43,493 bases of DNA from Gammaproteobacteria bacterium (GTDB lineage: Bacteria > Pseudomonadota > Gammaproteobacteria > GRL18), in assembly GCA_015488755.1 (NCBI GenBank), contig WFNB01000099.1:1-43493 (forward strand), given 5' to 3'. The notes under the pieces were generated by a model, which was given only the letters and a program-made list of their open reading frames with translations, was not told where the DNA came from and did no database searches. Position 1 is the stretch's first letter; every line of letters starts with the position of its first letter. Positions 6,134-36,715 of this stretch are shown here, in pieces. Both the position numbers and the translations under genes were made by a program.

Positions 6134-6781
6134 TTATTCGTCTTTTTGTAGAGCAGAGCGGATGCTTGCCAATATTTTTTTTGACTCTGTGGCATGAGGT
6201 AAAATGGCAATAAGTTTGCCTTTTTTATTAATAATATAAGTTTCAGAGGTATGATCCATACCATACATAAGCGCAGAATTTGAGAAGGGTACTTTTTCAT
6301 AATAGGCACCGTATTGTGCCACGACAGGGTCAAGATCAGCAGGGGTAGCGCTTAAGCCAATCATCTCTTTATCAAAATATTGGACGTACTTTTCTAATAC
6401 TTCTGGAGTGTCTCTACCGGGATCAACACTGATAAAAATACTTTGGAAGTGTTTTTTTTCCTCAGCTGAGAGTTGTGCAATCGCGCTGGATAAAAAACTT
6501 AAATTTGTTGGGCAGACATCGGGACACTTTGTATAGCCAAAGTAAATAGCGACAACTTTACCTCTGAAATCAGATAAAGAAACCCAACCGTTTTTACCAA
6601 TTAATGAAAAGTCCCCCCCACGATCACCGATAACGATGTCTTTTTCTTGTTTGGTTTTGGCGTTATCCGCAGGTGAAGAGCCATCAGCGGGTAGAGAGCC
6701 ATCAGCAGGTAAAAAGCCCTCAGCCATAATATAGTCAGACAGACATAGCACAAATAGACTCATTAATAATAATTTATTCAT
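6134..6781 (-). CDS. SCO1/SenC family copper chaperone / thiol oxidoreductase
   Basis: A 215-residue thioredoxin-fold protein that delivers copper to (or reduces the copper site of) respiratory oxidases. An N-terminal hydrophobic signal (LLLMSLFVLCLS) is followed by an odd linker with three tandem LPADGS-like repeats (residues 24-39), then the SCO domain. This has the copper-binding C86-P-D-V-C90 motif and the conserved downstream His region (MDHTSETYII). I chose the start at 6781 (MNKLLLM) rather than the longer frame because it gives a normal signal peptide and overlaps the upstream regulator gene by only 8 bases, typical of translational coupling. It is the last gene of the minus-strand cluster, suggesting a copper-requiring product of this locus or its divergent partner. 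Confidence 0.9.
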   Translation of the reverse strand: MNKLLLMSLFVLCLSDYIMAEGFLPADGSLPADGSSPADNAKTKQEKDIVIGDRGGDFSLIGKNGWVSLSDFRGKVVAIYFGYTKCPDVCPTNLSFLSSAIAQLSAEEKKHFQSIFISVDPGRDTPEVLEKYVQYFDKEMIGLSATPADLDPVVAQYGAYYEKVPFSNSALMYGMDHTSETYIINKKGKLIAILPHATESKKILASIRSALQKDE

Positions 6782-10830: not shown

Positions 10831-11174
10831 TGCATACACCGCTGGCTAAGTTCCTGACGCACACGATGCAAATAATCTTTATTCGATTCATTGGATTGCT
10901 GTGGTACCAGATAAATTAATTTAGCAGCAATAATATAAGGCTTACGTGCTAAACGTCCCTCACCTGCGGGTGTTTTTTTGCTGATAAGCACTTCTAAATG
11001 ATGTAAGGAGAGTTCTGGATCATCACAAAATCTCGGTAGGGTGACAGAGGTACTATACCATTTTATTGCTTGAGAAATAAACAGCATAATGGCTAAAATT
11101 ATCAACATAAAAGGCCATACTTTAAACCGAGATGGTTTGAAATTATCCTCATTAATTAATTCATGCTCAGTCAT
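10827..11174 (-). CDS. Small single-span membrane protein of unknown function
   Basis: 115 residues from an ATG at 11174 that overlaps the upstream stop by one base (TAATG). A cytoplasmic N-terminus of about 22 residues precedes one membrane helix (FMLIILAIMLFISQAI, about 25-42). A periplasmic domain follows with two Cys (FCDDPE and QRCMQ at the very end) and a basic tail. I recognise no family. The one-base and four-base overlaps with the flavoprotein and kinase genes mean tight co-translation, so it probably works with one of them, for example as a membrane partner of the flavoprotein or an accessory sensor subunit. Confidence 0.8.
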   Translation of the reverse strand: MTEHELINEDNFKPSRFKVWPFMLIILAIMLFISQAIKWYSTSVTLPRFCDDPELSLHHLEVLISKKTPAGEGRLARKPYIIAAKLIYLVPQQSNESNKDYLHRVRQELSQRCMQ

Positions 11175-12727: not shown

Positions 12728-12731
12728 GGTG

Positions 12732-14039: not shown

Positions 14040-14087
14040 AAGTGATCAGTGCTTTTTTTATCATTTTGGTCAAGGTAAGAGTAACCT

Positions 14088-15656
14088 TTATTGGTCTATA
14101 TTATCCATAGAAGAAAATGGACATTTCGAGCTTTGTTGCTGTTTTTTTACTTTGGGGTTAACCACAAAAGGGAGTATATGAGCCACTTCAACTTGTTTGG
14201 CTTTTTCTGTGAGTGCTCGTTTTTCTGCACGCATTTTAGTGTTGTGTCGCAAGGTGGTATCGCTGACTTGTTGTAGTATCTCATTAGCATCGTTAGACCA
14301 GTCCATATTAAATGCCCCAGAGGGCGGTTGAATTTTTTTTGCTTGTTTGACTTGAGTGGCGGCATCCACTAAGTCATCTAAATTTTTCATTCCAGCAGGG
14401 CACATGTTTTTGGTGGCTTCATGGACAATACTGGCGGTGATTACAGTATGACCTTCTTGTTGGGCATAACGTAAAATAGCGGCACGAGCCATATTATGAA
14501 CGAAGGGAGGAATGTTTTGCATGGCCTCTTCTGCCTGAGTTGACCATGTGGTGGTTGACTCAGCAATCATCTCTATCCGTGGTGTGTATTCTCTTTGAGT
14601 TAATAAAATTGCACAGCATGAATTGCGTAATAAATTTTCACTATTACCACCGATATCAAGTTCATCATCACAGTGAATCCCCACTTTACCCATTACTAAT
14701 AAGCTGGCATTAATCTCATTAATAAAGTTTTCTATGGCATGATGTGGCTTGCCGGATAATAAATGGGTGTGTGCTGTGATAGCAAATTCTTCTGCTAGTT
14801 GCTCAGCAACATCTAAATGTCCTTGATAAATTTTGGCTAGGCCATCATCAATAATTTCTTCATGGAGCTGTTCTTGTTCTTTAAAGCGAAAGACTTTACC
14901 GGCTTCATCACTGAGAACATTGGCAATGCTATTGAATGCGACATAGTGATAGTAGGGGTCAAAAGCGGAGACAATGTGTAGCTCAACTTGCCATTGTTTA
15001 GCAAGATTAAAGGCTGTTATTAGTGCGGCATAAGATTGCTTAGAGCCATCAAGTGCTGCCACAATAGGGCCTTCCTTAATGCTGTGTTTGGGTTGTTTAA
15101 TCACCAGTGTATCAATGGCACTACGACGTACGGTGCGCTCGCATACGGTACCAATAAGACTGCCTTGGATTGCACCTAGGCCAAGTGACCCCATGACCAG
15201 TAGATCGTAATGGCCATTATTGGCTTCATTTACGAGTGTCTTATAATTTTTGCCTTCCAAAGAACGCCCCTTAAAGGCAAGATCGGCTTTGTTACAGATA
15301 GTTTCAGCCTGAATTAAATAAGAGTCAGTGATAATGGATAGCCCCTTAGTAATCAAGGAGTCATGAATATCTCTTTGGCGTTCTAATTCGTCTTCTTCTT
15401 TAAACTGCTCGGGCAAACCACCTTCCATTTGTTTAAAACGTAAGTCATGCATTTGTGCTGCGTAGACATGAGATGCGCTAATGACCGATTGATATAAGCG
15501 ACCTAGCTCAATAGCATCTTCTGTTGCTTGATTGGAATGAGCAGAAGAATCAACAGCAATTAAAATTGAACGATAGCTGGTATCTAACGTTGGTGATGCG
15601 CCTGTTGATAATGGGTGTTCTTGAAGATCCAAATGAGAAGCTGTATTGCTAGGCAT
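14088..15656 (-). CDS. Tandem universal stress protein with C-terminal PCP_red-like domain(s)
   Basis: 522 residues. There are two UspA folds: residues about 28-180 (ILIAVDSSAHSNQATEDAI ... LLVMGSLGLGAIQG) and about 190-350 (PIVAALDGSKQSYAAL ... LLVMGKVGIH). Each has the nucleotide-binding G-rich end, though the second ends GGNSENLLRN. After these comes a PCP_red-like domain (WSTQAEEAMQNIPPFV...ILRYAQQEGHTVIT, about 369-415) and a second, more degenerate W-S-x-D-A start near 449. The same domain ends the adjacent radical SAM protein, so two neighbours share a rare tetrapyrrole-associated module. USP domains with this tail may sense adenylate or redox state or act as haem-handling scaffolds. 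Function inferred only. Confidence 0.85.
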   Translation of the reverse strand: MPSNTASHLDLQEHPLSTGASPTLDTSYRSILIAVDSSAHSNQATEDAIELGRLYQSVISASHVYAAQMHDLRFKQMEGGLPEQFKEEDELERQRDIHDSLITKGLSIITDSYLIQAETICNKADLAFKGRSLEGKNYKTLVNEANNGHYDLLVMGSLGLGAIQGSLIGTVCERTVRRSAIDTLVIKQPKHSIKEGPIVAALDGSKQSYAALITAFNLAKQWQVELHIVSAFDPYYHYVAFNSIANVLSDEAGKVFRFKEQEQLHEEIIDDGLAKIYQGHLDVAEQLAEEFAITAHTHLLSGKPHHAIENFINEINASLLVMGKVGIHCDDELDIGGNSENLLRNSCCAILLTQREYTPRIEMIAESTTTWSTQAEEAMQNIPPFVHNMARAAILRYAQQEGHTVITASIVHEATKNMCPAGMKNLDDLVDAATQVKQAKKIQPPSGAFNMDWSNDANEILQQVSDTTLRHNTKMRAEKRALTEKAKQVEVAHILPFVVNPKVKKQQQSSKCPFSSMDNIDQ

Positions 15657-15954: not shown

Positions 15955-16686
15955 TTATTTACCTTTAAAAGTAAAGTCAACGGTTGTTGTGCCACCTGCG
16001 GTTACTTCTGCCTTACCTTTTTTCTCACCTAAGGTACCATGCCACGCTTTGACTTTGTACTTGCCAGCAGGTATTCCACTGATGGTGTAAGTGCCATCTT
16101 CGGCAACAACGGCATAGTAGGGGTTTTTGGCAACAAAGACGAAACCATGCATAAAGTCATGGGCATCACACTCTAATTTCATACCAGCACCACGCTTTAA
16201 TTTTACTTTTTTCTTAGTGGTTGCGCCTTGTTTTGGCTGGCTAACATTCATAACGGTCTTTTTTGCGCGTCCCATAATTTCATAGGTATGAATATTATGT
16301 AACACAGGATCAGAATTGGTTGCTTCAAATAATGTATCGTTGGTCATAACACTCATAAATGGCATAAAGGCACAGCCTTTTTGATCGATTTTGGCTTCAA
16401 TTTTATCAAACTTTTTACCGGCTTTTACTTTATCAAGGTAGACAACCACGTTTCTTAAGGCACCATCTTTAACATCAACATAGTCAATGACGCGATCTTC
16501 AGTACCACAAGTTGCTTTGTCTTTGGCAACTTTGTATACGATAGGAGCTGCATCTTTTCCAGTAAAATTTACCTTACCTGAGATGGAACCACCATTGCTT
16601 ACATCAATAACTTTATATCCAGCCATTGATGGTAGGCTCAGTGTGGCGGCAGTAGCGAATGCAATTGAGGTGATTATTTTTTTCAT
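15955..16686 (-). CDS. Periplasmic cupredoxin-like protein with C-terminal regulatory-type beta domain
   Basis: 243 residues with a clear Sec signal peptide (MKKIITSIAFATAATLSLPSMAG). The body is beta-rich. A possible type-1 copper site is formed by H130 or H133 (DPVLHNIHTYE) together with C173, H176 and M179 (LECDAHDFMHGF): the His...Cys-x2-His-x2-Met order of cupredoxins. Cys60 and Cys105 could form a disulfide. The last part (AEDGTYTISGIPAGKYKVKAWH) is a carboxypeptidase-regulatory-like beta sandwich. It is probably a periplasmic electron carrier or copper-binding subunit of the bd-like cytochrome complex. Copper binding is my reading of the motif, not a family fact. A SCO protein in the same cluster fits copper use. 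Confidence 0.75.
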   Translation of the reverse strand: MKKIITSIAFATAATLSLPSMAGYKVIDVSNGGSISGKVNFTGKDAAPIVYKVAKDKATCGTEDRVIDYVDVKDGALRNVVVYLDKVKAGKKFDKIEAKIDQKGCAFMPFMSVMTNDTLFEATNSDPVLHNIHTYEIMGRAKKTVMNVSQPKQGATTKKKVKLKRGAGMKLECDAHDFMHGFVFVAKNPYYAVVAEDGTYTISGIPAGKYKVKAWHGTLGEKKGKAEVTAGGTTTVDFTFKGK

Positions 16687-16737: not shown

Positions 16738-19269
16738 TTATGCTACTTTTTTAAGTTCTTCTTCAGTATTGATAATAACTTCTAACATTTCCATAACGTA
16801 TCGTCGATAAGAACTACTAGAGACCTTGTCCAAGCGTGACAAGAGAAGTTCGGTACTTTTTTCTTTGTCTAGCTGCTTTAGTAATTGTGAAATACGTCTG
16901 GCAGACTGGCCTTCATCAGTCAGTGCGACATCAATAAATTGTTCGATTGCATCTGTATGCTGTAATTGTGTTAATGCTTCAATAGCAGCCATGGAAACAC
17001 TATAGTTAGGATTATTTAAACAGTCAAAAAGTGCCTGAATAATTTGTTCATCTGGTATATCGTTTAAGACCATATGGTGTGCTTGTTGTTCTGTACTGAG
17101 GCCGGCTTTATTACCTATGATATAGGTTAAACCATTTAAAGCATGCAGTTGTACCAAGTAGTCACTATCGGATAAATAATCCAATAAATGAGGTAAGGCG
17201 GCTCGATTACCAGAGTGCGCAAGCGCATGGATGCAAGCAATTCGCATATCAGGATCATTACTATCCAAGAGAGTAATTAACTTACCAAAGCTATTGTTTA
17301 AACTTGAAATTGAAGGATTTTTTAAGCTGATCTGTGATAAGGATTCGGCTGCCTCTTGACGTAATTGTTTATCATCATCATTGAGACATTCAGACAGTGC
17401 ATTGACAATCATTTCATCATAATCACTTTGGGTATTATCGGCCAATAGTCGAGCACAGATATGACGAGCATCTGCATAGGTATTGACTTTTTTACGGGTT
17501 AATTTCTTGGCACGGGTAAAATTCTTTTGCATTAGGGCAACAAATTCATCCATATCCTTATCCAGTTCTTCTGAAACAAAGGGGCCTAAGTCTTTATTGT
17601 GGGCTTTTTCTGCTTCGCTTGCGGGCACCATGGCTTGAGCACTTTCAATATTATCCATAAGAATTGCATCTAAGGTCGACATGGCTGCTGTAATGGGCTG
17701 ATCGTCATTCTCAGGGATAAGATGGGTGCTGTCATTGACATCCAGCCTATCGAACTGCTTTATGATAGCCTCAGTGACCTTAACATCATCTGCACAGGTA
17801 TCATTTTGGGCGCAACTGCTGCAATTGGATTCACTGGGTTGATCGCCTGTGGCACAAGCCGTATTTTTATTTGTGCTGTTATTGTCATTAGTGTCATTCA
17901 GATCAAACTGCTCGCCTTTTAGGGTTGCGAAAAGAATGCTAATTGCGGGCAATTCAGCATCACTATTATCGCTTGGTGCTGGGGCTTGATTGGAGATATT
18001 GAGTAAACTCTGAATGGCTGAGGCACGAATGGTTTGTTCTTTATTATGAATTAATTGTCTTAAGTTCACTAAGGCGCTTTGTTTTTCATCGTTATCTTGT
18101 ATACAAGTGATCACCTCTCCTAATGCTAAAATAGCTTCATTTCTGACCCATGCAGACTGAGTTTCTGATAAGGCTAAATCAAATAATAAGGGGGCGCTGA
18201 GGGGATTTTTTATAATACTGGCCATTTGACATGCTTGGGTGAGAACCTGATCATCATGTGCGCTTAGGCAGGCAATGAATTGTTGCTGATTTTCAGGTGT
18301 GAGCGTGTCAATGACAGAGGCAATTTTTTGCTGTTCGGTAAAAAATTTAAGAATAGCCACCTGTAGCATAATATCATCTGTTGTTGGTTTTTCTATAACC
18401 AGCATAGAAGCAATTTGATTGTAGTCAAATTGGCTATTGTTCTGAGATTCACCCGCTAGTTGTTGTAACACTTCTAGTGCTGCCCGTCTGACACTGGCGC
18501 TTTCATCACGTAGGCTTAAAAGAATTGCTCGAATGTACTGCGTTGCCTTGCGCTTACCTAGGGCATAAATAACGCTTTCACGCGTTTCTTCAGATTTATT
18601 GACTAAGGCTCGACCTAATGCCTTTAAGGTCTCAGAACTTTTGGAAAAACCTAAAGCTGTGGCTGCTCGGCGTTGTTGTCTTTCTTGAAATTCTGCTGCC
18701 TTATTATTAAGACGGGCAATTAAATAGGTGTCGGCTTCTTCAGTACCCAGTTTTGCCATGGCTTTAAGGATGATAGCCTCAATGTCTTGTCCAAATTCAT
18801 CCTCAAGCACTCTTTTTAATACCGCAAAAGCTTTGGCTACTTGCATCTCACCAAGAATTACAATGGCTTTTTCTTGTACATCCCACCAGCCATCCCAGTC
18901 AGCATTTTGGTCAAATTGCATATTTTCAGGGCGATCTTCAGCCAGCTTTAATAAGGCATCAATGGCGGCTTCACTTTTATATTGAGCCAGAGATTCTATA
19001 ACGGCTAGTTTGACATCACCATCAGGGTCTTTTTCTAAGGACTCTAGTAGTAAGGGGATGGCTGATGGTTCTTTGATTTTTCCCAGAGCAGTAATGGCAT
19101 CAATGCAGACATCAATGTCTTCATCTTGGAGTCGTGCAAGTAATGCCTTGGTGGCTTCCGTGGCTTTTAAATTGCCTAAGGTTTTTGCTGCATAGCAACG
19201 ATCCACTTCATCACCTGTCTCAAGGTAATTTAATAGACTGCGGGTTACTTTATGACTCAATGTTTGCAC
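16738..19269 (-). CDS. HEAT-repeat scaffold protein
   Basis: 843 residues built almost wholly from HEAT/PBS-lyase-type repeats, for example KTLGNLKATEATKALLARL and ALGKIKEPSAIPLLLESL, in an N-terminal block (about 1-430) and a C-terminal block (about 560-830). Between them is a low-complexity acidic and Asn-rich linker (about 450-560) carrying a Cys cluster (ACATGDQ...NCSSCAQNDTCADD, five Cys near residues 475-500) that could bind metal. There is no signal peptide, so it is cytoplasmic. It starts with GTG at 19269, preceded by TCTGGAGTAAATC. HEAT proteins of this kind act as scaffolds or cofactor lyases (CpcE/F bilin lyases). As first gene of a tetrapyrrole-flavoured cluster it may hold cofactor-maturation proteins. 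Confidence 0.88.
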   Translation of the reverse strand: MQTLSHKVTRSLLNYLETGDEVDRCYAAKTLGNLKATEATKALLARLQDEDIDVCIDAITALGKIKEPSAIPLLLESLEKDPDGDVKLAVIESLAQYKSEAAIDALLKLAEDRPENMQFDQNADWDGWWDVQEKAIVILGEMQVAKAFAVLKRVLEDEFGQDIEAIILKAMAKLGTEEADTYLIARLNNKAAEFQERQQRRAATALGFSKSSETLKALGRALVNKSEETRESVIYALGKRKATQYIRAILLSLRDESASVRRAALEVLQQLAGESQNNSQFDYNQIASMLVIEKPTTDDIMLQVAILKFFTEQQKIASVIDTLTPENQQQFIACLSAHDDQVLTQACQMASIIKNPLSAPLLFDLALSETQSAWVRNEAILALGEVITCIQDNDEKQSALVNLRQLIHNKEQTIRASAIQSLLNISNQAPAPSDNSDAELPAISILFATLKGEQFDLNDTNDNNSTNKNTACATGDQPSESNCSSCAQNDTCADDVKVTEAIIKQFDRLDVNDSTHLIPENDDQPITAAMSTLDAILMDNIESAQAMVPASEAEKAHNKDLGPFVSEELDKDMDEFVALMQKNFTRAKKLTRKKVNTYADARHICARLLADNTQSDYDEMIVNALSECLNDDDKQLRQEAAESLSQISLKNPSISSLNNSFGKLITLLDSNDPDMRIACIHALAHSGNRAALPHLLDYLSDSDYLVQLHALNGLTYIIGNKAGLSTEQQAHHMVLNDIPDEQIIQALFDCLNNPNYSVSMAAIEALTQLQHTDAIEQFIDVALTDEGQSARRISQLLKQLDKEKSTELLLSRLDKVSSSSYRRYVMEMLEVIINTEEELKKVA

Positions 19270-20294: not shown

Positions 20295-20321
20295 CTATTT
20301 AATAGACTTGGAACATTGCTA

Positions 20322-22175
20322 ATGTTACACAATAGATTGCCTCAAATAGTATCAAAAATGGCGGGCTACCCGTTATCTAATAATCAGGTTGTTACTCTTT
20401 CTCAAACAGTATTAACACTTTTGGCTTTGCTATTAATGATGAGTCTTGTGTTGACTCCGGATATTGCATGGTCTTCTTCTGATATGGCCAATATTACCGG
20501 AACGGCAACTCTTGAACATCAAGCGGCTCCAGTTCTGGGAGCTAAAGACTATCGACAAATTGGTTCTATAAGCAGTCGCTCATTTGTCTGGGTGATTGCC
20601 CAATTGCATTTATTTTTGGCTGCTTTTGTTTTAGCAGTGCCTTTATTTGTCACCGTTATTGAATGGATTGGCGTTAACACAGGCGATCAGCGCTATGATG
20701 ATATGGCGCATGAATTTATGAAAGTGTCTATGACGGCTTATTCATTGACGGCCTTGTTTGGTGGTACATTAGCCTTCTCATTATTTTTACTCTATCCCAC
20801 TTTTATGGCCTATATGATGACTGTTTTTGGTAATCAGGTGCTGGTCTATGCCTTATTGTTTTTTATGGAAAGTGGTGTGCTCTATGTTTATTATTATAGC
20901 TGGTATGCTTTGCGTTATGGTAATAAAAAATATGTTCACCTGAGTCTTGGTGTGCTATTAAATGGTGTGGGTACAACGCTCTTATTTGTCGCAAATGCTT
21001 GGGCAACCTTTATGATGGCACCTTCTGGTGTCGATGATACTGGGGCAGTTACCGGTGGTATTTGGGATATTATGCGAGGCCCTTTATGGAATCCGCTAAA
21101 CTTACACCGTTTTGTGGCTAATATTGCTTTTGGTGGTGCGGTGGTCGGCGCTTATGCAGGCTATAAAATGCTCAGTGCTCAAACAATGGCACAGCGAGCA
21201 CATTATGACTGGATGGGCTACACGGCTAACTTTATTGCTGTGCTGGCCTTTTTGCCCTTACCTTTTGCCGGTTATTATTTGATGGCTGAAATTTATGCCT
21301 ATTCCCAACAGATGGGAATTACCGCAATGGGAGGTATTCTTGCTTGGTTATTCATTGTCCAAGCCGTACTCATTGGTACCATTTTACTTTCTGCTAATTA
21401 CTATTTATGGAATGGTATGGCGCGCTGTGAAGGTGCTAAACGCTATATGGGGTTAATTAAATACATTGCAGTAACGTTAATTGTTAGCTTTTTAATTTGG
21501 GTGACACCCCATACCTTGATCTTATCAGCTAAAGAAATTGCCACTTTGGGTGGCTCTCATCACCCATGGCTTGGCCCCTTTGGTATTATGCCAGCCAAAA
21601 ATATTGCTGTGAACTTAATGCTTATTGGTACCTTCTTATCCTTTCAGTTATATCGTCGTGCCGACAAAGTAATCACAGTGCCTTGGGCTGGTTTTGGTAA
21701 TGCCTTAATGGTGGCTATTTATCTGGTTGCCATTGCTAATGTTATTTTCCTTGGTGTTTACTATGGCTATTTTACCAATACGGTTTATAAGGTGGGGTCA
21801 TCTGTGGCTCAGGTGGTATCAACCCTAATCGTTATTGTTTCGGGTGTCGTCATTGATACCATGATGTTTAAAGGGGCTAAAACCTTACCGGTTAAATGGG
21901 GACATATTTCTAACCGAGGTGTGTATGCCTTGTTTGCCTTGCCCATTGCTTTTACTTGGCTAATGGCCTTAATGGGCTATGTCCGTTCAAGTGTTCGTAC
22001 TCATTGGCATGTGTATACCATAATGAAAGATAATTCTGTGGATAATTTTATTCCTAGTATTGGTCATGCAGGCAATATGATGACCATAGCAACCATTAGC
22101 TTTTTACTATTGGTTTTATTTATCTTTTGGGTGGCTTCTTTAGGTGATACAAAACAAGCTCACCCTAATAAATAA
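20322..22175 (+). CDS. Cytochrome bd subunit I-like (CydA-related) membrane protein
   Basis: 617 residues with about 14 predicted membrane helices, longer than E. coli CydA (522). The first 90 residues carry an extra hydrophobic segment and a periplasmic stretch before the family core begins at SFVWVIAQLHLFLAAFVLAVPLF, whose H96 corresponds to the first haem-ligand His of CydA. The helix that in canonical CydA holds a GxxxEFQFG-type motif here reads LFGGTLAFSLFLLYP, without the Glu. No CydB follows; instead two c-type cytochrome genes do. It therefore belongs to the uncharacterised bd-like oxidoreductases (relatives known from nitrite oxidisers and others). It probably oxidises quinol and passes electrons to the attached cytochromes, or reduces O2. 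The ATG at 20322 is chosen over a TTG six bases earlier. Confidence 0.82.
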   Translation: MLHNRLPQIVSKMAGYPLSNNQVVTLSQTVLTLLALLLMMSLVLTPDIAWSSSDMANITGTATLEHQAAPVLGAKDYRQIGSISSRSFVWVIAQLHLFLAAFVLAVPLFVTVIEWIGVNTGDQRYDDMAHEFMKVSMTAYSLTALFGGTLAFSLFLLYPTFMAYMMTVFGNQVLVYALLFFMESGVLYVYYYSWYALRYGNKKYVHLSLGVLLNGVGTTLLFVANAWATFMMAPSGVDDTGAVTGGIWDIMRGPLWNPLNLHRFVANIAFGGAVVGAYAGYKMLSAQTMAQRAHYDWMGYTANFIAVLAFLPLPFAGYYLMAEIYAYSQQMGITAMGGILAWLFIVQAVLIGTILLSANYYLWNGMARCEGAKRYMGLIKYIAVTLIVSFLIWVTPHTLILSAKEIATLGGSHHPWLGPFGIMPAKNIAVNLMLIGTFLSFQLYRRADKVITVPWAGFGNALMVAIYLVAIANVIFLGVYYGYFTNTVYKVGSSVAQVVSTLIVIVSGVVIDTMMFKGAKTLPVKWGHISNRGVYALFALPIAFTWLMALMGYVRSSVRTHWHVYTIMKDNSVDNFIPSIGHAGNMMTIATISFLLLVLFIFWVASLGDTKQAHPNK

Positions 22176-22205: not shown

Positions 22206-23114
22206 ATGATAGCAGATGAATCACGTTTTATGACTCAAGAACAAGGAGGCATTCCTGTGTTTCTAAAGGTACTGTCTTTTATGGTTTTGATGGTATTGGT
22301 TTTTACTGGAATAGCCAATCTTTTGCCTCAGGTTGAAGGACAAGCACCTAAAGAAGTAAAAGTTGATTTGGGGACATTAACAATGGATGCCTATATTGCC
22401 ATGGGGGAAACCTTATTTAAAGGTAAAGGGACATGTACGCTATGTCATAATAATTTAGGACGGGCACCCGATATTCTAGCCTTAAATATGATTGATACGG
22501 CAGCAGAACGTCTAAACGATCCAAACTACAAAGGTGATGCTAACGATTCAGAAAGTTATTTTCATGAGTCTATGATCACACCTAGTAAATATATTGTACC
22601 AGGTTTTGGCAAGGCTGGAGACCCTTCTCCTATGCCAATGATTAATAAAGCACCTATCGGCTTAAATGATATTGAAATAGGTGCCATTATTGCCTTTTTA
22701 CAAGCAAAAGATGGTGGTCAGCCAACAGTATCATTACCAACAGAGACTCCTGCGGTAGCAGCAACAACTCGTGTTGCAGAGCCACCGAAACCAGCAGTTA
22801 ATGCTGAAGAAGTATTGACTAAAAATGGTTGTACTGCCTGTCATTCGGTATTGGATAGTGTGGCAAGTATTGGCCCTAGTTTGAAAGCCATAGGTGCTCG
22901 TGCGACTCGAGAAGAAATACGAACCAGTATAATTAACCCTTCAGCGGTTATTGTTGAAGGCTTTGCACCTATTATGCCTGCTGATTTTGCAGATAAAATG
23001 ATGGTCAAGGAACTTGAAATGGTGGTTGATTTTCTCGCAAAATCGACTTCTGAAGTATCCACTGAATCCGCTTCTGAATCAAGAGTAGTTACTGAGAAAA
23101 AAGGCGAAAAATAA
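22206..23114 (+). CDS. Membrane-anchored diheme cytochrome c
   Basis: 302 residues. An N-terminal membrane anchor (VFLKVLSFMVLMVLVFTGIANLL, about 18-40) keeps the protein on the periplasmic face. Two class-I cytochrome c domains follow, with haem motifs C77-T-L-C-H81 and C209-T-A-C-H213, separated by a Pro/Thr/Ala-rich linker. Met ligands are likely in PMPMINK and IMPADF. The Ser/Glu-rich C-terminus is disordered. It sits 30 bases after the bd-like gene and 2 bases before the triheme cytochrome gene. Most likely it is the electron-accepting or -donating subunit of that complex. Confidence 0.9.
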   Translation: MIADESRFMTQEQGGIPVFLKVLSFMVLMVLVFTGIANLLPQVEGQAPKEVKVDLGTLTMDAYIAMGETLFKGKGTCTLCHNNLGRAPDILALNMIDTAAERLNDPNYKGDANDSESYFHESMITPSKYIVPGFGKAGDPSPMPMINKAPIGLNDIEIGAIIAFLQAKDGGQPTVSLPTETPAVAATTRVAEPPKPAVNAEEVLTKNGCTACHSVLDSVASIGPSLKAIGARATREEIRTSIINPSAVIVEGFAPIMPADFADKMMVKELEMVVDFLAKSTSEVSTESASESRVVTEKKGEK

Positions 23115-23116
23115 CA

Positions 23117-25543
23117 ATGAAAGGTTTTAAGTTTCCACCATTATTAATGGCCACTCTCATTTTAAGTGCGGCATTTGCATTTTTTAAATACGGCATCCCT
23201 CCCTTACTTCCCGTATCACTTTTGATCCAATATATGATCATCTGTATTATTGGGGTGTTGCTTTTTTTCTCTTTTAATGAAGAAACATGGACTCGCTTTA
23301 AAGCACCGATTGCTGCCGTTGCTCAAAAAGATAATACTTGGCCGATACGTTGGTTCTTTTTACTGGCCATTCCAGCGTTAATTGGTTATACCGCTCATAT
23401 TATCGTTAAACCCAGTTGGGAATCTCCTGTTGAGTTGCGTCAGGTGCATCCTGCTCCTCCGTCCAAGTTAAACGTGTTTAATAAAACCTATGATCTCTCT
23501 ACTTTAGAAAATCCTATCCGAGAAGAGGTTGTTGCTAAAATGAAAGCAGGTGATGAAGCTAAGGGATGGGAAATTTATAATACTGCTGTTACTGCAGGGC
23601 GTGATATTTATTATCAAAATTGTTTTTTTTGTCATGGCGACCTAATGTATGGCGAAGGTATTTTTGCTGATGGCTTTAATCCCAGACCAATTAATTTTCA
23701 GAAGGAGACCATTAACCAACTACAAGAAGCCTTTCTTTTTTGGCGCATAACCACCGGTGGCCCAGGACTTCCTAAAGAAGGCACACCTTGGCAATCAGCC
23801 ATGCCCGTATGGCATGAAATGTTGGGTGAGCAGGATGTTTGGAATGTCATTACTTTTTTGTATGATTATACCGAAGAAGTACCTCGTATATGGGATGCTG
23901 ATGTTTCTAAAATTGTTACGGGTATGAAAACCAAACTCAAAGATGAACGGGCAAAAATGACAGGTAAGGATTTATATGATTTGCGTTGTTCGGTCTGTCA
24001 TGGCGGCAGTGGTGCTGGAGATGGTGTTGCTGCGGATCGTTTATACCCAAGACCTCGTGATTTTACCTTGGGATTATTCAAATACAAAACCTCACCGGGT
24101 ACGCAACCTGTACGTGATGAAGATTTATTTAAGACTATTAAATTTGGTCTAACCGGCACAGCTATGCCTGGCTGGAGCAAATTAATGTCGGATGAACAAA
24201 TTAAATCCTTAATTCCAGTGTTAAAGCGCTTTGATGTGTCGGCGACGTGGGCACCTGAAAATGCAGAAGATGACGATTTTGATGAGGATGGTCATTATCT
24301 CAAAGATGACTTTAATACGGTTAAGGAAGTCGAGCCGTTAACAGGTCAAATTCCCTATACAGCGGAATCAATTGCTAAAGGTAAAGAGGCCTTTAAGCCT
24401 TGTCAGGAATGCCATGGGGTTGCTGGGCGGGGTAATATCCGCTCAGGTAAACGCTTAGCTGATGACTGGGGCTTCCGTCTCTGGCCAAGGGATTTGAATA
24501 AACCTTGGTCATGGCGGGCAACAAATCGTAGCAATACCCAAGAGCCGGAGAAAAGACGTGATGAGATAGTAAAAAATATTTATTCACGCCTCTCTATTGG
24601 TATCCCAGGTACACCCATGCCTGCTCATCGTGCTGAAGGTGAAGGTAATGAAGATCCCATTAGTTTGGAAGATCGCTGGCATATTGCTAACTATGTGTAT
24701 TCTTTACGTGAGCAAAATACAGCACCGGGTAAAGGTGTGATTCAAGCGAAGAAAATTGAGGGTGCTTTACCCAATTCTCTTGATGATGATGCCTGGCAAA
24801 CGGCACCCGTAACAGCCATGCGTTTGGTGCCTAATATTATTAAAGAAAAACGTTTGTTTACACCACTTAATGATCTTGTGAGTGTCCGTGCTCTTTATAA
24901 CAAAGAGGACATTGCCTTTTTAATTGAAGTCAATGATCGCACTGAAAGTTTACCGGGTCATGAATATTCAATGAGTATTCAGGATGAAGAGTTGACACTA
25001 CACTCAGATGCTATTGCTATGCAATTTCCTCGGGAAGGGGCTTATACTTCTGCTCCTATGGTTGAAAAACCGTTATACCGGCATGGTGATGCTGCACATA
25101 ATACCTCAATGTGGTATTGGAATGCGGGCAGTATTAAGCCGAAAAAAGCAGCCCAGACCATAGTGTTTAAAGGCACAGGACCCAATAATAAACCTGAACC
25201 TCTAATAGACTATAAAGCGGTATCTGCTCAGGGACAATGGCAAAGTGGTCGTTGGCAGGTGTTAATGAAACGCAAGCGTATTGGTAGTGATGGTGAAATA
25301 TCCTTTAATGAAGGGGAATTTATTCCAGTCTCCTTTGCTAATTGGGATGGTAGTAATGGTGAAACCGGCTCTAAACACACTCTTTCAACTTGGTACTGGT
25401 TATTATTACCACCAGAGAGTGATCCCGTAAAACTGTATGTGATCCCTGCTATCTGGGCATTGGTTTTCTTTATTATTGGTTTGCTGATAGTTCGAGGGCA
25501 AAGAAAAAAGTATCAAGGCTTATTAGTGAGTGAAAAATTATAA
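23117..25543 (+). CDS. Triheme cytochrome c fused to an ethylbenzene-dehydrogenase-type haem-binding domain
   Basis: 808 residues. The N-terminus has two to three membrane helices (PPLLMATLILSAAFAFF, LIQYMIICIIGVLLFF, FFLLAIPALIGYTAHII). Three haem c motifs follow: C169-F-F-C-H173, C291-S-V-C-H295 and C429-Q-E-C-H433, each in its own cytochrome c fold. Residues about 545-775 resemble the EB_dh haem-b domain of gamma subunits of ethylbenzene/DMS dehydrogenase and nitrite oxidoreductase (AWQTAPVTAM, DAIAMQFPREG, NTSMWYWNAGS). A final helix (LYVIPAIWALVFFIIGLLIV) anchors the C-terminus. The protein could wire four haems from the membrane into the periplasm. It closes the operon, followed by a terminator. 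Confidence 0.85.
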   Translation: MKGFKFPPLLMATLILSAAFAFFKYGIPPLLPVSLLIQYMIICIIGVLLFFSFNEETWTRFKAPIAAVAQKDNTWPIRWFFLLAIPALIGYTAHIIVKPSWESPVELRQVHPAPPSKLNVFNKTYDLSTLENPIREEVVAKMKAGDEAKGWEIYNTAVTAGRDIYYQNCFFCHGDLMYGEGIFADGFNPRPINFQKETINQLQEAFLFWRITTGGPGLPKEGTPWQSAMPVWHEMLGEQDVWNVITFLYDYTEEVPRIWDADVSKIVTGMKTKLKDERAKMTGKDLYDLRCSVCHGGSGAGDGVAADRLYPRPRDFTLGLFKYKTSPGTQPVRDEDLFKTIKFGLTGTAMPGWSKLMSDEQIKSLIPVLKRFDVSATWAPENAEDDDFDEDGHYLKDDFNTVKEVEPLTGQIPYTAESIAKGKEAFKPCQECHGVAGRGNIRSGKRLADDWGFRLWPRDLNKPWSWRATNRSNTQEPEKRRDEIVKNIYSRLSIGIPGTPMPAHRAEGEGNEDPISLEDRWHIANYVYSLREQNTAPGKGVIQAKKIEGALPNSLDDDAWQTAPVTAMRLVPNIIKEKRLFTPLNDLVSVRALYNKEDIAFLIEVNDRTESLPGHEYSMSIQDEELTLHSDAIAMQFPREGAYTSAPMVEKPLYRHGDAAHNTSMWYWNAGSIKPKKAAQTIVFKGTGPNNKPEPLIDYKAVSAQGQWQSGRWQVLMKRKRIGSDGEISFNEGEFIPVSFANWDGSNGETGSKHTLSTWYWLLLPPESDPVKLYVIPAIWALVFFIIGLLIVRGQRKKYQGLLVSEKL

Positions 25544-30936: not shown

Positions 30937-32055
30937 ATGGGTATCCGAGCAACAAAAAAACGACTACTCGTTTCAGTTGCAATGGGTCTGGGGTTAGCGC
31001 TGACTGTCAATGCACAGGCATCTAATTATCCTGATATCGGCCCACTGCCAAACGTTAAAATTAACAAGGCAAAAGCAGAGCTGGGTAAGCGTCTGTTCTT
31101 TGATCCTCGTTTATCTGGTGATGCTGCAATCTCTTGTGCGCACTGTCATAATCCTGAAAAAGGCTATGCTGATGGTATGGCCCTATCTGATGGTTATCCG
31201 GGTAATAAGCACTTTAGAAATAGTCCAACCGTGATCAATGCCGTGCATAAAAATCGTTGGATGTGGGACGGCCGTATTGGGACTAACCTTAATGATGTAA
31301 CCCGTGGCATGCTCACAGAAGATTACATTATGAACATGGATATGCGTATCATGCAGGAGCGTGTTAAGCAGGATCCAGTATACGTTAAAATGTTTAAGGA
31401 TGCTGGTTATGGTGAGCCATCAAATGGTTCAGTGCGTAAAGCAATACCTGAATATCTAAAAACATTGACCTCTAAAAATGTTCCTTTTGATAACAACAAA
31501 ATGTCTGCTTCTGCAAAACGTGGTATGAGTTTATTTAAAGGTAAAGCTGGCTGTATTCAATGTCATAACGGTACTAACTTTACTGATGGTAAAGCCTATA
31601 ATACTGGTGTTCCAGAAAACTGGGATGTCTTTATGGATACGGATCGTCATCAGGCATTTCTTGCTTATAATATGTTTATGGGTAATGAAGGCCGTATGCA
31701 ATTGAAACGTGATCCTGGTGCACATATTCATCAGCATAGAGCTGATAAATCAGATATGGGCACATTTCTAACGCCTTCGCTACGTGAGTTAACGTACACC
31801 GCACCGTATATGCATAATGGCATGATTAAAACCTTAGACGATGTGGTTGTTTTTTATAATAACGGTGGTGGTCAGGACTCTAATAAAGACAGTCGCATTA
31901 AACCTTTAGGTTTAAGCAGTGCTGAACAAAAAGATCTGGTTGCGTTTCTCAAGTCATTATCAGGTGATCCTCTAACCGGCAGTAAGTATGTCTGGAGTGA
32001 AGAGTATCCTGAAGAATATGAAGCCATCAAAAACTGGCGTCAAGTCAAAAACTAG
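30937..32055 (+). CDS. idrP1: Diheme cytochrome c peroxidase-like subunit (IdrP1/IdrP2 type)
   Basis: 372 residues of the CcpA/MauG diheme peroxidase family, which reduce H2O2 with electrons from small cytochromes. The start at 30937 (MGIRATKK) has a strong GTGGAGG ribosome-binding site and yields a normal Sec signal ending NAQA-S; a longer frame upstream does not. Haem motifs are C67-A-H-C-H71 and C206-I-Q-C-H210. Family blocks GKRLFFDPRLSG, FRNSPTVIN, TPSLREL and YMHNGMIKTLDDVV are present. In dissimilatory iodate reducers two such peroxidases accompany IdrAB and are thought to remove the H2O2 or reactive iodine species formed. Which of the two here is orthologous to P1 or P2 is not decidable by eye, so the symbol is provisional. 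Confidence 0.85.
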   Translation: MGIRATKKRLLVSVAMGLGLALTVNAQASNYPDIGPLPNVKINKAKAELGKRLFFDPRLSGDAAISCAHCHNPEKGYADGMALSDGYPGNKHFRNSPTVINAVHKNRWMWDGRIGTNLNDVTRGMLTEDYIMNMDMRIMQERVKQDPVYVKMFKDAGYGEPSNGSVRKAIPEYLKTLTSKNVPFDNNKMSASAKRGMSLFKGKAGCIQCHNGTNFTDGKAYNTGVPENWDVFMDTDRHQAFLAYNMFMGNEGRMQLKRDPGAHIHQHRADKSDMGTFLTPSLRELTYTAPYMHNGMIKTLDDVVVFYNNGGGQDSNKDSRIKPLGLSSAEQKDLVAFLKSLSGDPLTGSKYVWSEEYPEEYEAIKNWRQVKN

Positions 32056-32075
32056 CGTCCAGGAGAAAGATAAGT

Positions 32076-33323
32076 ATGAAAACACTGATTAAAACAGGCG
32101 CTTTACTTTCAGCAGCGGTGTCATTGGCCGTTCTGTCTGGTTGTGAGAGTGCAAGTGCAGATAAGTCAGCTGGGTTTACAGGAAAGCTAAGTCCGGTATC
32201 GCAAACTGCTGTTGATGCCAATGCATCCGCATCAGGCAATGCCCCATTGTCACCATTACCCGACTCAGTTCCCGTGCCACCTGATAATAAGCAAACAGAG
32301 GCAAAAATTGCCTTAGGTAAATTGTTATTCTTTGATCCACGACTCGGTGGTGATGCCTCAGTTTCTTGTGCCAGTTGTCATGATCCCTCTCAGGGCTGGG
32401 CATGGGCAGAGGATTTATCTCGTGGTTACCCTGGTACGGTTCACTGGCGTAATAGCCAGTCCATTATTAACTCTGGCTATTATCCTGGTTCTTTCTGGGC
32501 GAACTCTGTGCCATCACTAGAAAAGCAGGCACCCTCTGCAGCGAAAGGTGGTGTTGCTGGTAATGGTGAAAACGATATCATGGAATCTCGCCTAGCCTTG
32601 ATCCCTGAATATAAGAAGCGCTTTAAAGAGGTTTTTGGTGATAAAACCCCTCTGATTGGTAATGCGTGGCGTGCCATTGCATCATTTGAGCGCACTCTGA
32701 CACAAACGGATACGCCCATTGATCGCTATTTGAAAGGTGATAAAAAAGCACTTTCTGAACAACAGTTACGTGGTAAAGCATTGTTTGAAGGTAAGGCAGC
32801 TTGTATTCAATGTCACAATGGTGCATTAGCATCCAATATGGAATTTTATAATATTGGTGTGCCGCCATCAAAACGTTGGGAAGAAGATGGTTTAGCACAA
32901 ATTACCTTCCGTTTTGAACTATATGGCAAAGGCTCTACCGAAGAACTCTATCGTACTGCAAAGGCTGATCCAGGTGCTTATTTCCGTGGTAAGAATCGTT
33001 GGGATCTCGGTAAATTTAGAACACCAAGCCTTCGTTATACCATGTATACCGCACCTTATATGCATAATGGTGCATTTTATACCTTGGAAGAAGTCGTTGA
33101 TTTCTATAATAAAGGTGGCTTTGATGAAGATAACCGTACTACGGGTTGGCCAAAAACTAAATCGAAGTTAATTAAACCTCTTGGCTTAAGTGATAATGAA
33201 AAAGAAGATTTAGTGGCATTTCTTGAAGCATTCTCCGGTGATGAAATCCTAATGGATAAGCCTGAGTTGCCTGAATATGCACCTATGTTTACTTTAGATG
33301 AACTTAAGGAGGCAAAAAAATGA
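32076..33323 (+). CDS. idrP2: Second diheme cytochrome c peroxidase-like subunit, lipoprotein
   Basis: 415 residues, clearly related to the preceding peroxidase (shared GKLLFFDPRLGGDASVSCASCH and CIQCHNG...TPSLRYTMYTAPYMHNGAF blocks). The signal peptide ends in a lipobox, LSGC with C23, so it is membrane-tethered. An Ala/Ser/Pro-rich linker (about 30-70) extends it from the membrane. Haem motifs are C98-A-S-C-H102 and C243-I-Q-C-H247. Its last four bases overlap the Rieske gene start (ATGA), so the two are translationally coupled. The pairing of one soluble and one lipid-anchored peroxidase suggests division of labour. P1/P2 naming is provisional. Confidence 0.85.
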   Translation: MKTLIKTGALLSAAVSLAVLSGCESASADKSAGFTGKLSPVSQTAVDANASASGNAPLSPLPDSVPVPPDNKQTEAKIALGKLLFFDPRLGGDASVSCASCHDPSQGWAWAEDLSRGYPGTVHWRNSQSIINSGYYPGSFWANSVPSLEKQAPSAAKGGVAGNGENDIMESRLALIPEYKKRFKEVFGDKTPLIGNAWRAIASFERTLTQTDTPIDRYLKGDKKALSEQQLRGKALFEGKAACIQCHNGALASNMEFYNIGVPPSKRWEEDGLAQITFRFELYGKGSTEELYRTAKADPGAYFRGKNRWDLGKFRTPSLRYTMYTAPYMHNGAFYTLEEVVDFYNKGGFDEDNRTTGWPKTKSKLIKPLGLSDNEKEDLVAFLEAFSGDEILMDKPELPEYAPMFTLDELKEAKK

Positions 33324-33916
33324 GTGAAATTATAGATAACGATCAGGCGATTAAAGATGAGTCAGCACAAGCACATGGCAAGTGTATGCTCAATCGTCGT
33401 AAGTTCTTAATGTATAGTGGTAGCACGGCAGCAGCGGCCAGCACGGTTTCCATTAGTCTGTTTGCAGGTACTGCACAGGCTGAAACACGTAAGGCCAGAG
33501 TTCAGGGTTATCCGCGCAAGAAAATTGCGACTTTGAGTCAACTTAAGGATCATCAACCTATTAACTTTAATTACCCAGATGGGGGCAAAAACTCTCAGGC
33601 AATGATTGTTAAAATGGGTGGTGTACAAGCCGGTGGTGGTGTTGGTAATCAGCGTGATGTGGTGGCCTTTAGCTATATGTGTACGCACCAAGGTGGTCCT
33701 TTGCAGAACACCTATAAACATGTGGGTGATCAGCGCGTTATGGGGCAATGTCCATTGCACTTATCCACGTATGATTTAAGACGTCATGGGATTATTGTTT
33801 CTGGTCAAGCGTACCAAAGTTTGCCTCAGGTTCTACTTGAAGTAGAAGGTGATGATGTTTACGCCGTTGGTATCATGGGGCTGTTGTTTGGTCGTCAAGA
33901 TAACTTGAGCGCATAG
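33320..33916 (+). CDS. idrB: Rieske 2Fe-2S subunit of the AioB/IdrB type, Tat-exported
   Basis: 198 residues. The N-terminus carries a twin-arginine signal (R26-R27-K-F-L-M) followed by an Ala-rich hydrophobic stretch ending AQAE, so the folded iron-sulfur protein is exported, probably together with the molybdoenzyme. The Rieske cluster ligands are C121-T-H123 and C144-P-L-H147. There is no disulfide Cys pair in the usual Rieske positions beyond these, as in low-potential or AioB-like proteins. It is 9 bases upstream of the large subunit gene, giving the B-A order known for arsenite oxidase. It passes electrons between cytochrome c and the Mo subunit. Confidence 0.9.
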   Translation: MSEIIDNDQAIKDESAQAHGKCMLNRRKFLMYSGSTAAAASTVSISLFAGTAQAETRKARVQGYPRKKIATLSQLKDHQPINFNYPDGGKNSQAMIVKMGGVQAGGGVGNQRDVVAFSYMCTHQGGPLQNTYKHVGDQRVMGQCPLHLSTYDLRRHGIIVSGQAYQSLPQVLLEVEGDDVYAVGIMGLLFGRQDNLSA

Positions 33917-33925
33917 GAGAAAGAA

Positions 33926-36622
33926 ATGACTATAGATTATTATCAAGCACAAGATCATGCGCCACTACCACCCAAAGATGCAGATGTTATGACAACAGCC
34001 TGTGATCATTGTATCGTGGCATGTGGTTATAAAGTGTATCGTTGGCCTGTAAGCTCGAAAGATGGAGGCATGAAAGCCTCTGAAAATGCTTTTGGTATTG
34101 ATTTTCCATCCAATATGTTGCAATCATGGGTAGCACCCACACAGCATAGTATTGTTACTCATAAAGGTAAAAAACATAATGTGGTGATCCTTCCCGATAA
34201 GGATGCCAATGTGGTTAACACCAATGGTGACTCATCTATTCGTGGTGGTTTGTTAGCACAAAAATGCTATAGCCCCGATCGTAAAACAAGGGATCGCCTA
34301 AAAACACCGTTAGTACGGATCAATGGTGTATTAACTCCAATGTCATGGGATGATGCTATTGACATTGCCGCTCAAGTAGGTCGTCATGTTCTGGAAAAGC
34401 ACGGTGAAGAGTCCTATGCCGTAAAAACATACTCGTATCAATATATTGAAAATACCTATGCGATTACTAAGTATGCCTTACGTCATGTAAACACACCAAA
34501 CTTTACCTTCCATGATACGCCGGCCAATGTGACCTCAACACCAGGTTTCCGTGATGCGGGTTTTGATAACTTTGGCCCCAGCTATGATGACTGGGGTTCC
34601 GCTGACACTCTTATGATTTGTGGTACCGATCCTTATGAAACCAAAACCGTTCTCTTTACTCAGCACATTATGCCAGGTATTGCTAACGGCATGAAGGTCA
34701 TTGCTCTGAATCCTCGTGAGACAGCGGGTATTGCTTATATTAAGAAGATGGGTGGTTTACATTTAGATGTTTTTCCAGGTTCTGATACCTTGGTATTAGG
34801 TGCCATTATTCGTATTATTATGCAAAATGGCTGGCAGGACTCAGAGTGGATCAAAAACTGGGTAAATAATAAGTGGGAATCTAATTCTGGTTTCGGTCAG
34901 GGTACTCGTAATACACCTTGGCAGTGGCGTACCACTTGGGGTAAATTCCAAACCAAGGGTTATGAAGACTATAAGAAATGGAACCTTAAGCAAGCAGAGT
35001 ATGATCCTAAATATGCGGCTAAGAAGGCTGGTATTGATGTTAAAAAAATCTATCAGGCCGCTGAATGGTTAGCTAAACCTGTTAATGGTAAGCGCCCTAA
35101 GACATCTATTGGTATTGAAAAGGGCTTTTATTGGTCAAATAATACTGGCAACACCAATGCTATTAGTACGTTGGCAACTGTTTGTGGTGCCGGTGGTCGT
35201 CCTGGTCAAGTGGTGGGTCGATTTGGTGGTCATCAACGTGGTGGTCAGGGTGGTGGTGGTTATCCACGTAATAAATCGGCTCAGAAAGTACCTGGACGTC
35301 GTCGTCAGGCGTTGGATACAGACAGATGGTTGTATTCAGGGCATACGCGTCTCGCACATGTAATTGGTACGACTTGGATTCAATCCATGACAGGTTCACA
35401 AGCATTAGCGTCTAAGTTTGAAGAATTAGTCGTTAAGAACCCCAATCAGGTTAAATCCAAAAACAAAGCAGATATTATTGCCACATTGAAAAACCGAGCA
35501 GATTCAGGCGGTATGGTGGTAATTGATCAAGATATTTATCTACGTGATCCCATTGGTGCTAAGTTTGCTGACATCATCTTCCCTGCTGCCACTTGGGGCG
35601 AAGAAGACTTTATGCGTGCTAATGGCGAGCGTCGTCTGCGTTTGTATCAGAAGTTTAATGATGCCCCAGGTGAAGCAAAACCCGATTGGAAGATCATTTC
35701 CATGTTGGCACATAAAATGGGCTATGATGGTTTTGATTGGAAAAATTCCAACGAAGTCGCTGAAGAAGCATCTCGCTTTAGTCGTAAGAGTCGTAAGGCG
35801 TTCCACATGGTTAAAGTGGCGGCGCAAATTGAAGGTAAAACCTTGCATCAAAAAATGCGTGAGTTTGGTACGGATGGTATTCAAGGTCCAGTCATGTATA
35901 ACTATAAGACGGGTAAACTTTATGGTACCAAACGTCTGCATGATACTACGGTTGGAGAAAAACAATTTGCTGCCATGGGGCTTGAAAATGGTCCACAGAA
36001 AGAGAACCGTTATGGCAAGAAGATGACTCATTTCAATTCTCAAACCGGTAAAGTAAATCTACAGAAACACCCATGGAACTTATTTGGTGATTTATGGGGC
36101 TGGTTATCTCCTAAGAAAGATGAGCTGTGGATGAGCAATGGTCGTGTTAACGAAGTTTGGCAGTCTGGTTTTGATGATGTTGAGCGCCGTGAATACATTG
36201 CGCAACGCTGGCCTGGAAACTGGGTAGAAGTTAATCCAGAAGATGCCAAAAAACGTGGTATTGAATCAGGTGATGTTGTTATGATTCATTCTGATCGTGT
36301 GCCTGTTTTTAAAGATACTATTCTTGGTGTGCATGGCAAAGATTTCCAATTTTCTGAATTAATGAAAAATGGTCATATTGAACTGGTTAAAGCATCCATT
36401 TCTGGTGTTGCTATTGTTACTCCTACGACTAAGCAAGGAGTATTATATGGTAACTTCCTAGATATGAAAAACCCAGGAAACTCGTTAACAATTCGTGTTC
36501 CTGATAATATTTCAGGTAACTACAATTACAAGATGGGTGTTGCTAAAATCAAGAAAATCGGTGAGTCTGAGTTTAAGAAAGACTTCCGAGGCATGTCCTT
36601 CGCACCACGTAATATTACTTAA
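33926..36622 (+). CDS. idrA: AioA-like molybdopterin catalytic subunit, probable iodate reductase IdrA
   Basis: 898 residues of the DMSO-reductase superfamily, arsenite-oxidase-like branch. The N-terminal cluster motif C26-x2-C29-x3-C33, with S104 where a fourth Cys would be, is the 3Fe-4S pattern of AioA. It has no Tat signal of its own and should be co-exported with the Rieske partner. Of the four arsenite-pocket residues known in Alcaligenes AioA (H195, E203, R419, H423), H196, R432 and H436 are present but the Glu is S204. The loop after H436 is glycine-rich (QRGGQGGGGYP) instead of an EGYxRPPYP type. With two diheme peroxidases in the operon this argues for iodate reductase (IO3- to I-, periplasmic) over arsenite oxidase. 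Substrate remains an inference. Confidence 0.82.
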   Translation: MTIDYYQAQDHAPLPPKDADVMTTACDHCIVACGYKVYRWPVSSKDGGMKASENAFGIDFPSNMLQSWVAPTQHSIVTHKGKKHNVVILPDKDANVVNTNGDSSIRGGLLAQKCYSPDRKTRDRLKTPLVRINGVLTPMSWDDAIDIAAQVGRHVLEKHGEESYAVKTYSYQYIENTYAITKYALRHVNTPNFTFHDTPANVTSTPGFRDAGFDNFGPSYDDWGSADTLMICGTDPYETKTVLFTQHIMPGIANGMKVIALNPRETAGIAYIKKMGGLHLDVFPGSDTLVLGAIIRIIMQNGWQDSEWIKNWVNNKWESNSGFGQGTRNTPWQWRTTWGKFQTKGYEDYKKWNLKQAEYDPKYAAKKAGIDVKKIYQAAEWLAKPVNGKRPKTSIGIEKGFYWSNNTGNTNAISTLATVCGAGGRPGQVVGRFGGHQRGGQGGGGYPRNKSAQKVPGRRRQALDTDRWLYSGHTRLAHVIGTTWIQSMTGSQALASKFEELVVKNPNQVKSKNKADIIATLKNRADSGGMVVIDQDIYLRDPIGAKFADIIFPAATWGEEDFMRANGERRLRLYQKFNDAPGEAKPDWKIISMLAHKMGYDGFDWKNSNEVAEEASRFSRKSRKAFHMVKVAAQIEGKTLHQKMREFGTDGIQGPVMYNYKTGKLYGTKRLHDTTVGEKQFAAMGLENGPQKENRYGKKMTHFNSQTGKVNLQKHPWNLFGDLWGWLSPKKDELWMSNGRVNEVWQSGFDDVERREYIAQRWPGNWVEVNPEDAKKRGIESGDVVMIHSDRVPVFKDTILGVHGKDFQFSELMKNGHIELVKASISGVAIVTPTTKQGVLYGNFLDMKNPGNSLTIRVPDNISGNYNYKMGVAKIKKIGESEFKKDFRGMSFAPRNIT

Positions 36623-36675: not shown

Positions 36676-36715
36676 AAACCCAAATATAGTTTACGCTGTA
36701 TTTGGGTTTTTTTGT
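36676..36715 (+). terminator. Intrinsic terminator of the iodate-reductase-like operon
   Basis: AAACCCAAATA pairs perfectly with TATTTGGGTTT and continues into a T-run. It separates the operon from the RND efflux genes, which therefore have their own promoter in the 50 bases that follow. Confidence 0.85.

Follow-up and report, generated by a model that had tools for sequence, protein, structure and literature searches.

The contig WFNB01000099.1 (GenBank assembly GCA_015488755.1), a stretch of 43,493 nucleotides from a Gammaproteobacteria bacterium of the GTDB lineage GRL18 and here called the window, carries an operon that its sequence identifies as an idrP2-P1-B-A iodate-reductase cluster and not as an arsenite oxidase. 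The four genes are ordinary in kind and add a further member, from an uncultured genus, to a published family: the catalytic subunit belongs to the IdrA clade, the paired peroxidase genes and a Rieske gene accompany it, and the glutamate of the arsenite site is lost. A HEAT-repeat protein encoded elsewhere in the window is a near-obligate genomic partner of the large marine subclade of IdrA, and may be a new part of this system, possibly unknown to specialists. The operon and the hairpin behind it are as follows:

30937 to 32055, forward strand: idrP2-like diheme cytochrome c peroxidase, 372 amino acids (aa) from an ATG behind GGAGG, with a CCP_MauG domain, a Sec-type signal peptide and a WDGR motif.
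32076 to 33323, forward strand: idrP1-like diheme peroxidase, 415 aa, with a CCP_MauG domain and a lipoprotein-type signal with the lipobox LSGC.
33320 to 33916, forward strand: idrB, Rieske [2Fe-2S] subunit, 198 aa, with the twin-arginine signal NRRKFLM and the Rieske CXH...CX2H pair.
33926 to 36622, forward strand: idrA, molybdopterin catalytic subunit, 898 aa, without a twin-arginine translocation (Tat) signal, with the motif CX2CX3CX70S and Ser204 at the position of AioA Glu203.
36676 to 36709, forward strand: terminator-like hairpin directly 3' of idrA, a 15-pair stem with a T-run.

The genes are tightly spaced, with 20 bases between the two peroxidase genes, a 4-base ATGA overlap (-4) between idrP1 and idrB, and 9 bases between idrB and idrA. 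The peroxidases match Pfam CCP_MauG (E-values 5e-40 for the idrP2-like and 1e-40 for the idrP1-like gene), and each contains two CXXCH motifs. IdrB matches TIGR02694 above the cut-off, and IdrA matches TIGR02693 with 416 bits (cut-off 359). Export signals were read from the sequence by eye: a Tat signal is present on IdrB and none on IdrA, and both peroxidases have Sec signals. The gene order is as in PMC10989891. An earlier sequence-only reading of this DNA had recorded the same gene set, positions and spacing, which the open reading frames, domains and motifs bear out, but it missed that the HEAT protein, a bd-like cytochrome module and a two-component system of the window recur with idr elsewhere. 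The terminator behind idrA is strong, and thus the resistance-nodulation-division (RND) pump genes downstream are probably outside the operon; they were rejected as a part of it on account of the intervening terminator and their low recurrence at other idr loci.

For comparison, 80 related loci were gathered from named genomes, plasmid records, and relatives among whole genomes. By identity to the window IdrA, they form three groups. The first, at 58-90%, comprises marine gamma- and alphaproteobacteria; the second, at 44-50%, the plasmids of Azonexus and Thiothrix, the genome G077, and a few genomes from the G392 family; the third, at 28-32% over full length, is AioA. Two peroxidase genes and a Rieske gene accompany idrA in all 73 IdrA loci (groups one and two) that have 3 kb or more of DNA upstream, and this recurring four-gene order is thus not a chance arrangement. 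The same set was found in 0 of 6 plasmid AioA loci, and in sister genomes from the genus of the window, aioA is accompanied by a Rieske gene but by no peroxidase gene. Several genomes of this genus (G005, G007, G008, and G012) carry a true AioA-type arsenite oxidase plus a marine-type IdrA at separate loci.

In a tree of 74 rows, one branch (Shimodaira-Hasegawa-like approximate likelihood ratio test, SH-aLRT, 100) separates 53 IdrA-like from 17 AioA-like rows, and the window protein sits deep inside the IdrA-like side. The AioA rows include NT-26, pSinA (Sinorhizobium M14), Thermus thermophilus HB8, and the sister genomes; the AioA loci of NT-26 and Sinorhizobium M14, both arsenite oxidizers, have annotated aioX/aioR/aioS neighbors. 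The proven IdrA proteins (SCT, IR-12, DN11, TC-10, and R. azorensis) are not in the tree, and their group is represented by the Azonexus plasmid island. Endozoicomonas sp. OPT23, whose IdrA (L027) is 74% identical to that of the window, is listed as a predicted iodate reducer (PMC8692401). The family assignment to Idr in the sequence-only reading is upheld by the IdrA branch, the two peroxidases, the motifs, and the lost arsenite-site glutamate. Its statement that arsenite oxidase operons do not normally carry paired peroxidases is true of every AioA locus checked, and the phylogeny it proposed puts the 898-aa protein on the IdrA side and not inside AioA, with Azonexus as stand-in for the proven group.

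The [3Fe-4S] ligands of the window IdrA are C26, C29, C33, and S104, which form CX2CX3CX70S, identical to the motif reported for the DN11 enzyme (PMC10149662). The closest solved structures to the window IdrA are those of AioA, with which it shares the fold and the architecture of a [3Fe-4S] cluster plus a Rieske subunit. We take the arsenite pocket of Alcaligenes AioA to be His195, Glu203, Arg419, and His423 (A. faecalis numbering). The equivalents of His195, Arg419, and His423 are kept in every aligned row of IdrA and AioA, the window included. The Glu203 position is Glu in 24 of 24 AioA rows; among the 101 IdrA rows it is Ser in 92, Asp in six, and Ala in three, and in the window Ser204 replaces it. 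This position alone distinguishes IdrA from AioA throughout the sequences compared.

An arsenite oxidase (AioAB) with unusual neighbors, as the NCBI model name "arsenate reductase (azurin)" would have it, would agree with the matches to TIGR02693 and TIGR02694 above cut-off, with AioA as the closest solved structure, and with the three retained pocket residues. However, the TIGR models cannot tell the two enzymes apart, as the same label on the Azonexus idr cluster shows; the tree excludes the window protein from the AioA clade with full support; no IdrA row retains Glu203; and peroxidases always accompany IdrA. True AioA is a separate protein in the sister genomes, with ~28% identity over full length, and compared with the AioAB proteins of NT-26, pSinA, and Thermus (28-29% identical), the window IdrA has lost Glu203, contains three IdrA-specific insertions, and has peroxidase genes upstream. 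An arsenite oxidase is thus very improbable and was rejected on the tree, the arsenite-site residue, and the gene neighborhood. Marine IdrA genes are easily misread as arsenic genes, because the current NCBI models give them the azurin label.

The window operon shares with IdrABP1P2 of Pseudomonas sp. SCT, Denitromonas sp. IR-12, Azoarcus sp. DN11, and Aromatoleum TC-10 the P2-P1-B-A order, a Tat signal on IdrB only, the CX2CX3CX70S motif, and two diheme peroxidases. It differs in having neither moaA nor a small cytochrome c gene directly downstream, in the HEAT gene that the window has instead, and in an IdrA only ~47% identical to that of the Azonexus plasmid. The plasmid idr cluster of Azonexus hydrophilus includes a sigma-54 two-component system, a c-type cytochrome, and moaA, the accessory genes described for proven iodate respirers (PMC8801600), and its IdrA was taken as the stand-in for the SCT/IR-12/DN11/TC-10 group. 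Closer to the window are the putative idr clusters of marine Alpha- and Gammaproteobacteria (Endozoicomonas sp. OPT23, Ruegeria, Vibrio, Moritella, and Sedimenticola), with 64-90% identical IdrA, the same operon, and nearly always the HEAT gene. In Sedimenticola hydrogenitrophicus (L052), a second peroxidase gene pair was observed ~8 kb downstream of idrA.

The window cluster is likely to be an iodate reductase, as judged from its sequence. Respiration of iodate by the host is less certain, because the marine subclade differs from the clade of the proven respirers and because the reduction by marine aerobes is probably not respiration. All proven iodate respirers known by 2022 belong to one small IdrA clade (PMC8801600), and three marine aerobes with idr clusters reduced iodate only under oxygen limitation, which may not be anaerobic respiration (PMC11445184). 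On these grounds, and with the stand-in of the proven clade at such low identity, the earlier claim that the host can respire iodate is unsupported by sequence alone. In R. azorensis (Roseovarius azorensis), idr was induced during oxygen-limited iodate reduction (PMC11445184). Its IdrA, with a predicted mass of 99.4 kDa, is slightly nearer the other subclade (99.2-99.7) than the alphaproteobacterial members of the marine subclade (mostly 99.7-100.6), which is a weak hint; none of the genomes compared fitted this mass together with that of its IF-2 (89.1 kDa). The reduction of iodate as an electron sink or for redox balancing at low oxygen, and not as growth-supporting respiration, has nearly an even chance of being correct, although growth on iodate has been proven in SCT, IR-12, DN11, and TC-10 (PMC8692401, PMC10149662, PMC8801600).

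The marine subclade might also be functionally distinct from the proven iodate respirers, as an Idr-type reductase with a different main oxyanion or oxidant. The two subclades are only ~47-50% identical, the position of Glu203 holds Ser in the marine subclade while Asp predominates among the six members of the other, and the accessory genes differ (HEAT in the former, cytochrome c and moaA in the latter). However, these hosts live in oxic seawater, in which iodine is stable as iodate, and the four genes, their motifs, and their order are common to both subclades. The whole clade is also treated as putative iodate reducers (PMC8692401). A different main substrate is thus rather improbable.

The HEAT-repeat protein is encoded on the other strand, upstream of the operon:

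16738 to 19269, reverse strand: HEAT-repeat protein, 843 aa, genomic partner of the marine IdrA subclade.

Its homologues adjoin idr in many of the named marine-subclade loci. In Ruegeria and further alphaproteobacteria the gene directly follows idrA; it lies divergently upstream of idr in Vibrio (diverging from the peroxidase genes), Moritella, Photobacterium, Marinomonas, and Endozoicomonas, and downstream of idr in two Thiotrichaceae. The family has conserved spots at WDxWWDxQ near residue 125 and STLxAI near residue 531. Across 346 genomes sampled from one family, at nearly one for each genus, the HEAT protein was found in 15 of the 16 genomes with marine-type IdrA (14 by protein search and one by profile) and in 0 of the 330 others; idrA of the sixteenth genome is broken at a contig edge. 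The Fisher p-value of this co-occurrence, 2e-25, is a guide only, since related genomes are not independent. Among relatives of the window, 12 of 14 IdrA genomes have the HEAT gene versus 0 of 43 others. It was also found in 29 of 32 further IdrA genomes of the marine subclade, and two of the three misses are Vibrio strains with a diverged HEAT protein (Pfam HEAT_2) at the same place. It was not found in four genomes with the other IdrA subclade, in the early branch G069, or in any of 276 other genomes of the phylum.

The predicted structure (predicted local distance difference test, pLDDT, 81) consists of two helical solenoids with a mostly disordered linker of ~160 residues between them, and a fold search with this model returned generic HEAT solenoid scaffolds only. 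No signal peptide is evident, which fits a cytoplasmic role. Literature joining "HEAT repeat" with "iodate reductase" was not found in a coverage that omits most subscription journals, and the protein is unmentioned in the text of the two main comparative papers, whose figures and supplements fall outside that coverage.

Between the HEAT gene and the operon lies a bd-like cytochrome module:

20316 to 22175, forward strand: cytochrome bd subunit I-like membrane protein of the CydA fold, 619 aa, often directly upstream of idr in other genomes.
22206 to 23114, forward strand: diheme c-type cytochrome.
23117 to 25543, forward strand: triheme c-type cytochrome with an EB_dh (heme b binding) domain.

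The 619-aa protein resembles CydA in fold (best Foldseek match E. coli bd-II, E-value 2e-8). It differs from CydA in that no CydB was found beside it, the diheme and triheme-EB_dh cytochromes follow it, and the canonical GRQPW region is altered. A wide search revealed 14 gammaproteobacterial loci in which the trio immediately precedes the peroxidase genes and shares their strand. The HEAT gene is divergent in 12 of 13 such genomes, ~1-1.8 kb before the bd-like match and 9.3-10.8 kb upstream of idrA, a shared contig being judged from fitting coordinates. The window has the HEAT/bd-like block, with dcd, purN, purM, and other genes between the block and idr, which sets it apart from the putative marine clusters; in the sister genomes G005 and G007 the block is on a contig other than that of idr. 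Among the relatives, 11 of 14 IdrA genomes have the module versus 1 of 43 others, and of three further genomes of the phylum with the module, only one has IdrA. The trio or its first genes are present without IdrA in G037, G091, and G316. The module was rejected as an idr-specific part because of these occurrences, and is thus a partner and not a hallmark. Near it, the region 11174-15656 encodes a radical SAM protein whose closest models are those of NirJ2/heme b synthase, together with a protoporphyrinogen-oxidase-like protein and a PCP_red-domain Usp protein; these look like a set for making or altering a heme.

The HEAT protein and the bd-like module could be passengers of a shared genomic island and not working parts of iodate reduction, as suggested by the housekeeping genes between them and idr in the window and by the few genomes that have the module without IdrA. 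However, the HEAT gene is present in nearly all genomes with marine-type IdrA, in arrangements as varied as downstream, divergent upstream, and distant, and was not found in the comparison genomes (43 relatives, 330 of the family sample, and 276 others of the phylum), almost none of which has marine-type IdrA. A passenger role is thus unlikely, although far from negligible.

The explanation favored with good confidence is a periplasmic IdrABP1P2-type iodate reductase, with a HEAT protein that works with the system and a bd-like electron module. IdrAB, with its molybdenum bis-molybdopterin guanine dinucleotide cofactor (Mo-bisMGD), [3Fe-4S] cluster, and Rieske cluster, would leave the cytoplasm already folded and paired, by way of the Tat signal on IdrB, and would draw electrons from periplasmic carriers. 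By analogy with relatives, it would reduce iodate to hypoiodous acid, which would disproportionate abiotically to iodide and iodate, and the two diheme peroxidases would remove H2O2 or other oxidants; this reaction, the disproportionation, and the peroxidases as detoxifiers are described in PMC8692401. Our best guess for the HEAT protein is a dedicated assembly factor, which as a scaffold or chaperone in the cytoplasm would help to load cofactors or to bring IdrA and IdrB together ahead of Tat export. For the module of CydA-like, diheme, and triheme-EB_dh proteins, the guess is a membrane donor that probably passes electrons from quinol to the periplasm in many gammaproteobacteria.

Several points weigh against this explanation. 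The window IdrA is 47.5% identical to that of the Azonexus plasmid and belongs to the other, large marine subclade, from which we know of no purified enzyme, and its substrate could be another oxyanion than iodate. The tree is tied to proven IdrA solely via the Azonexus plasmid island, which carries the accessory genes of that group. In the window, ~5 to 14 kb of DNA, with purM, purN, and dcd in it, separates the HEAT gene and the bd-like module from idr, and co-occurrence of the HEAT gene with IdrA proves no function. A sigma-54-like site before idr was not found in the window.

Other genes of the window have relatives at idr loci:

6774 to 8177, reverse strand: sigma-54-type response regulator, of which 57-61% identical relatives adjoin idr in several Vibrionaceae.
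8212 to 10839, reverse strand: PAS sensor histidine kinase, a candidate iodate or redox sensor.
15955 to 16686, reverse strand: cupredoxin-like secreted protein, with homologues adjoining idr in L036, L039, L045, L047, L048, L065, L072, and L076.

Relatives of the regulator and the kinase are found beside idr in Vibrionaceae and others. A sigma-54-like site, TGGC-N8-TGC, occurs at a steady distance of 70-270 bases upstream of the peroxidase match in L017, L024, L025, L042-L064, and other gammaproteobacterial loci; it was not found before the peroxidases in alphaproteobacterial loci. Secreted cupredoxin-like proteins at idr loci fall into two different families, counting the window protein, L020, L021, and the Ruegeria loci together. 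They are candidate copper electron carriers for IdrAB. Near the start of the window, in AT-rich DNA, a transposase-like open reading frame of 1019 aa (2069-5128) is of the Tn3 type by reading of its sequence.

Bacterial iodate reduction supplies iodide to the sea surface, where iodide consumes ozone. The idr genes serve as a marker for iodate reduction in ocean metagenomes. The HEAT protein offers a second, highly specific marker for the largest marine subclade, and the bd-like module a possible electron route for iodate reduction. The chances are about equal for and against the proposal that in the marine subclade, which is probably the more common form of IdrA in the ocean, IdrAB requires a dedicated HEAT protein for its assembly or activity, and that a bd-like/multiheme module of its own links it to the quinone pool in many gammaproteobacteria. 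If this is true, the known idr operon would be only a part of the marine iodate-reduction machinery.

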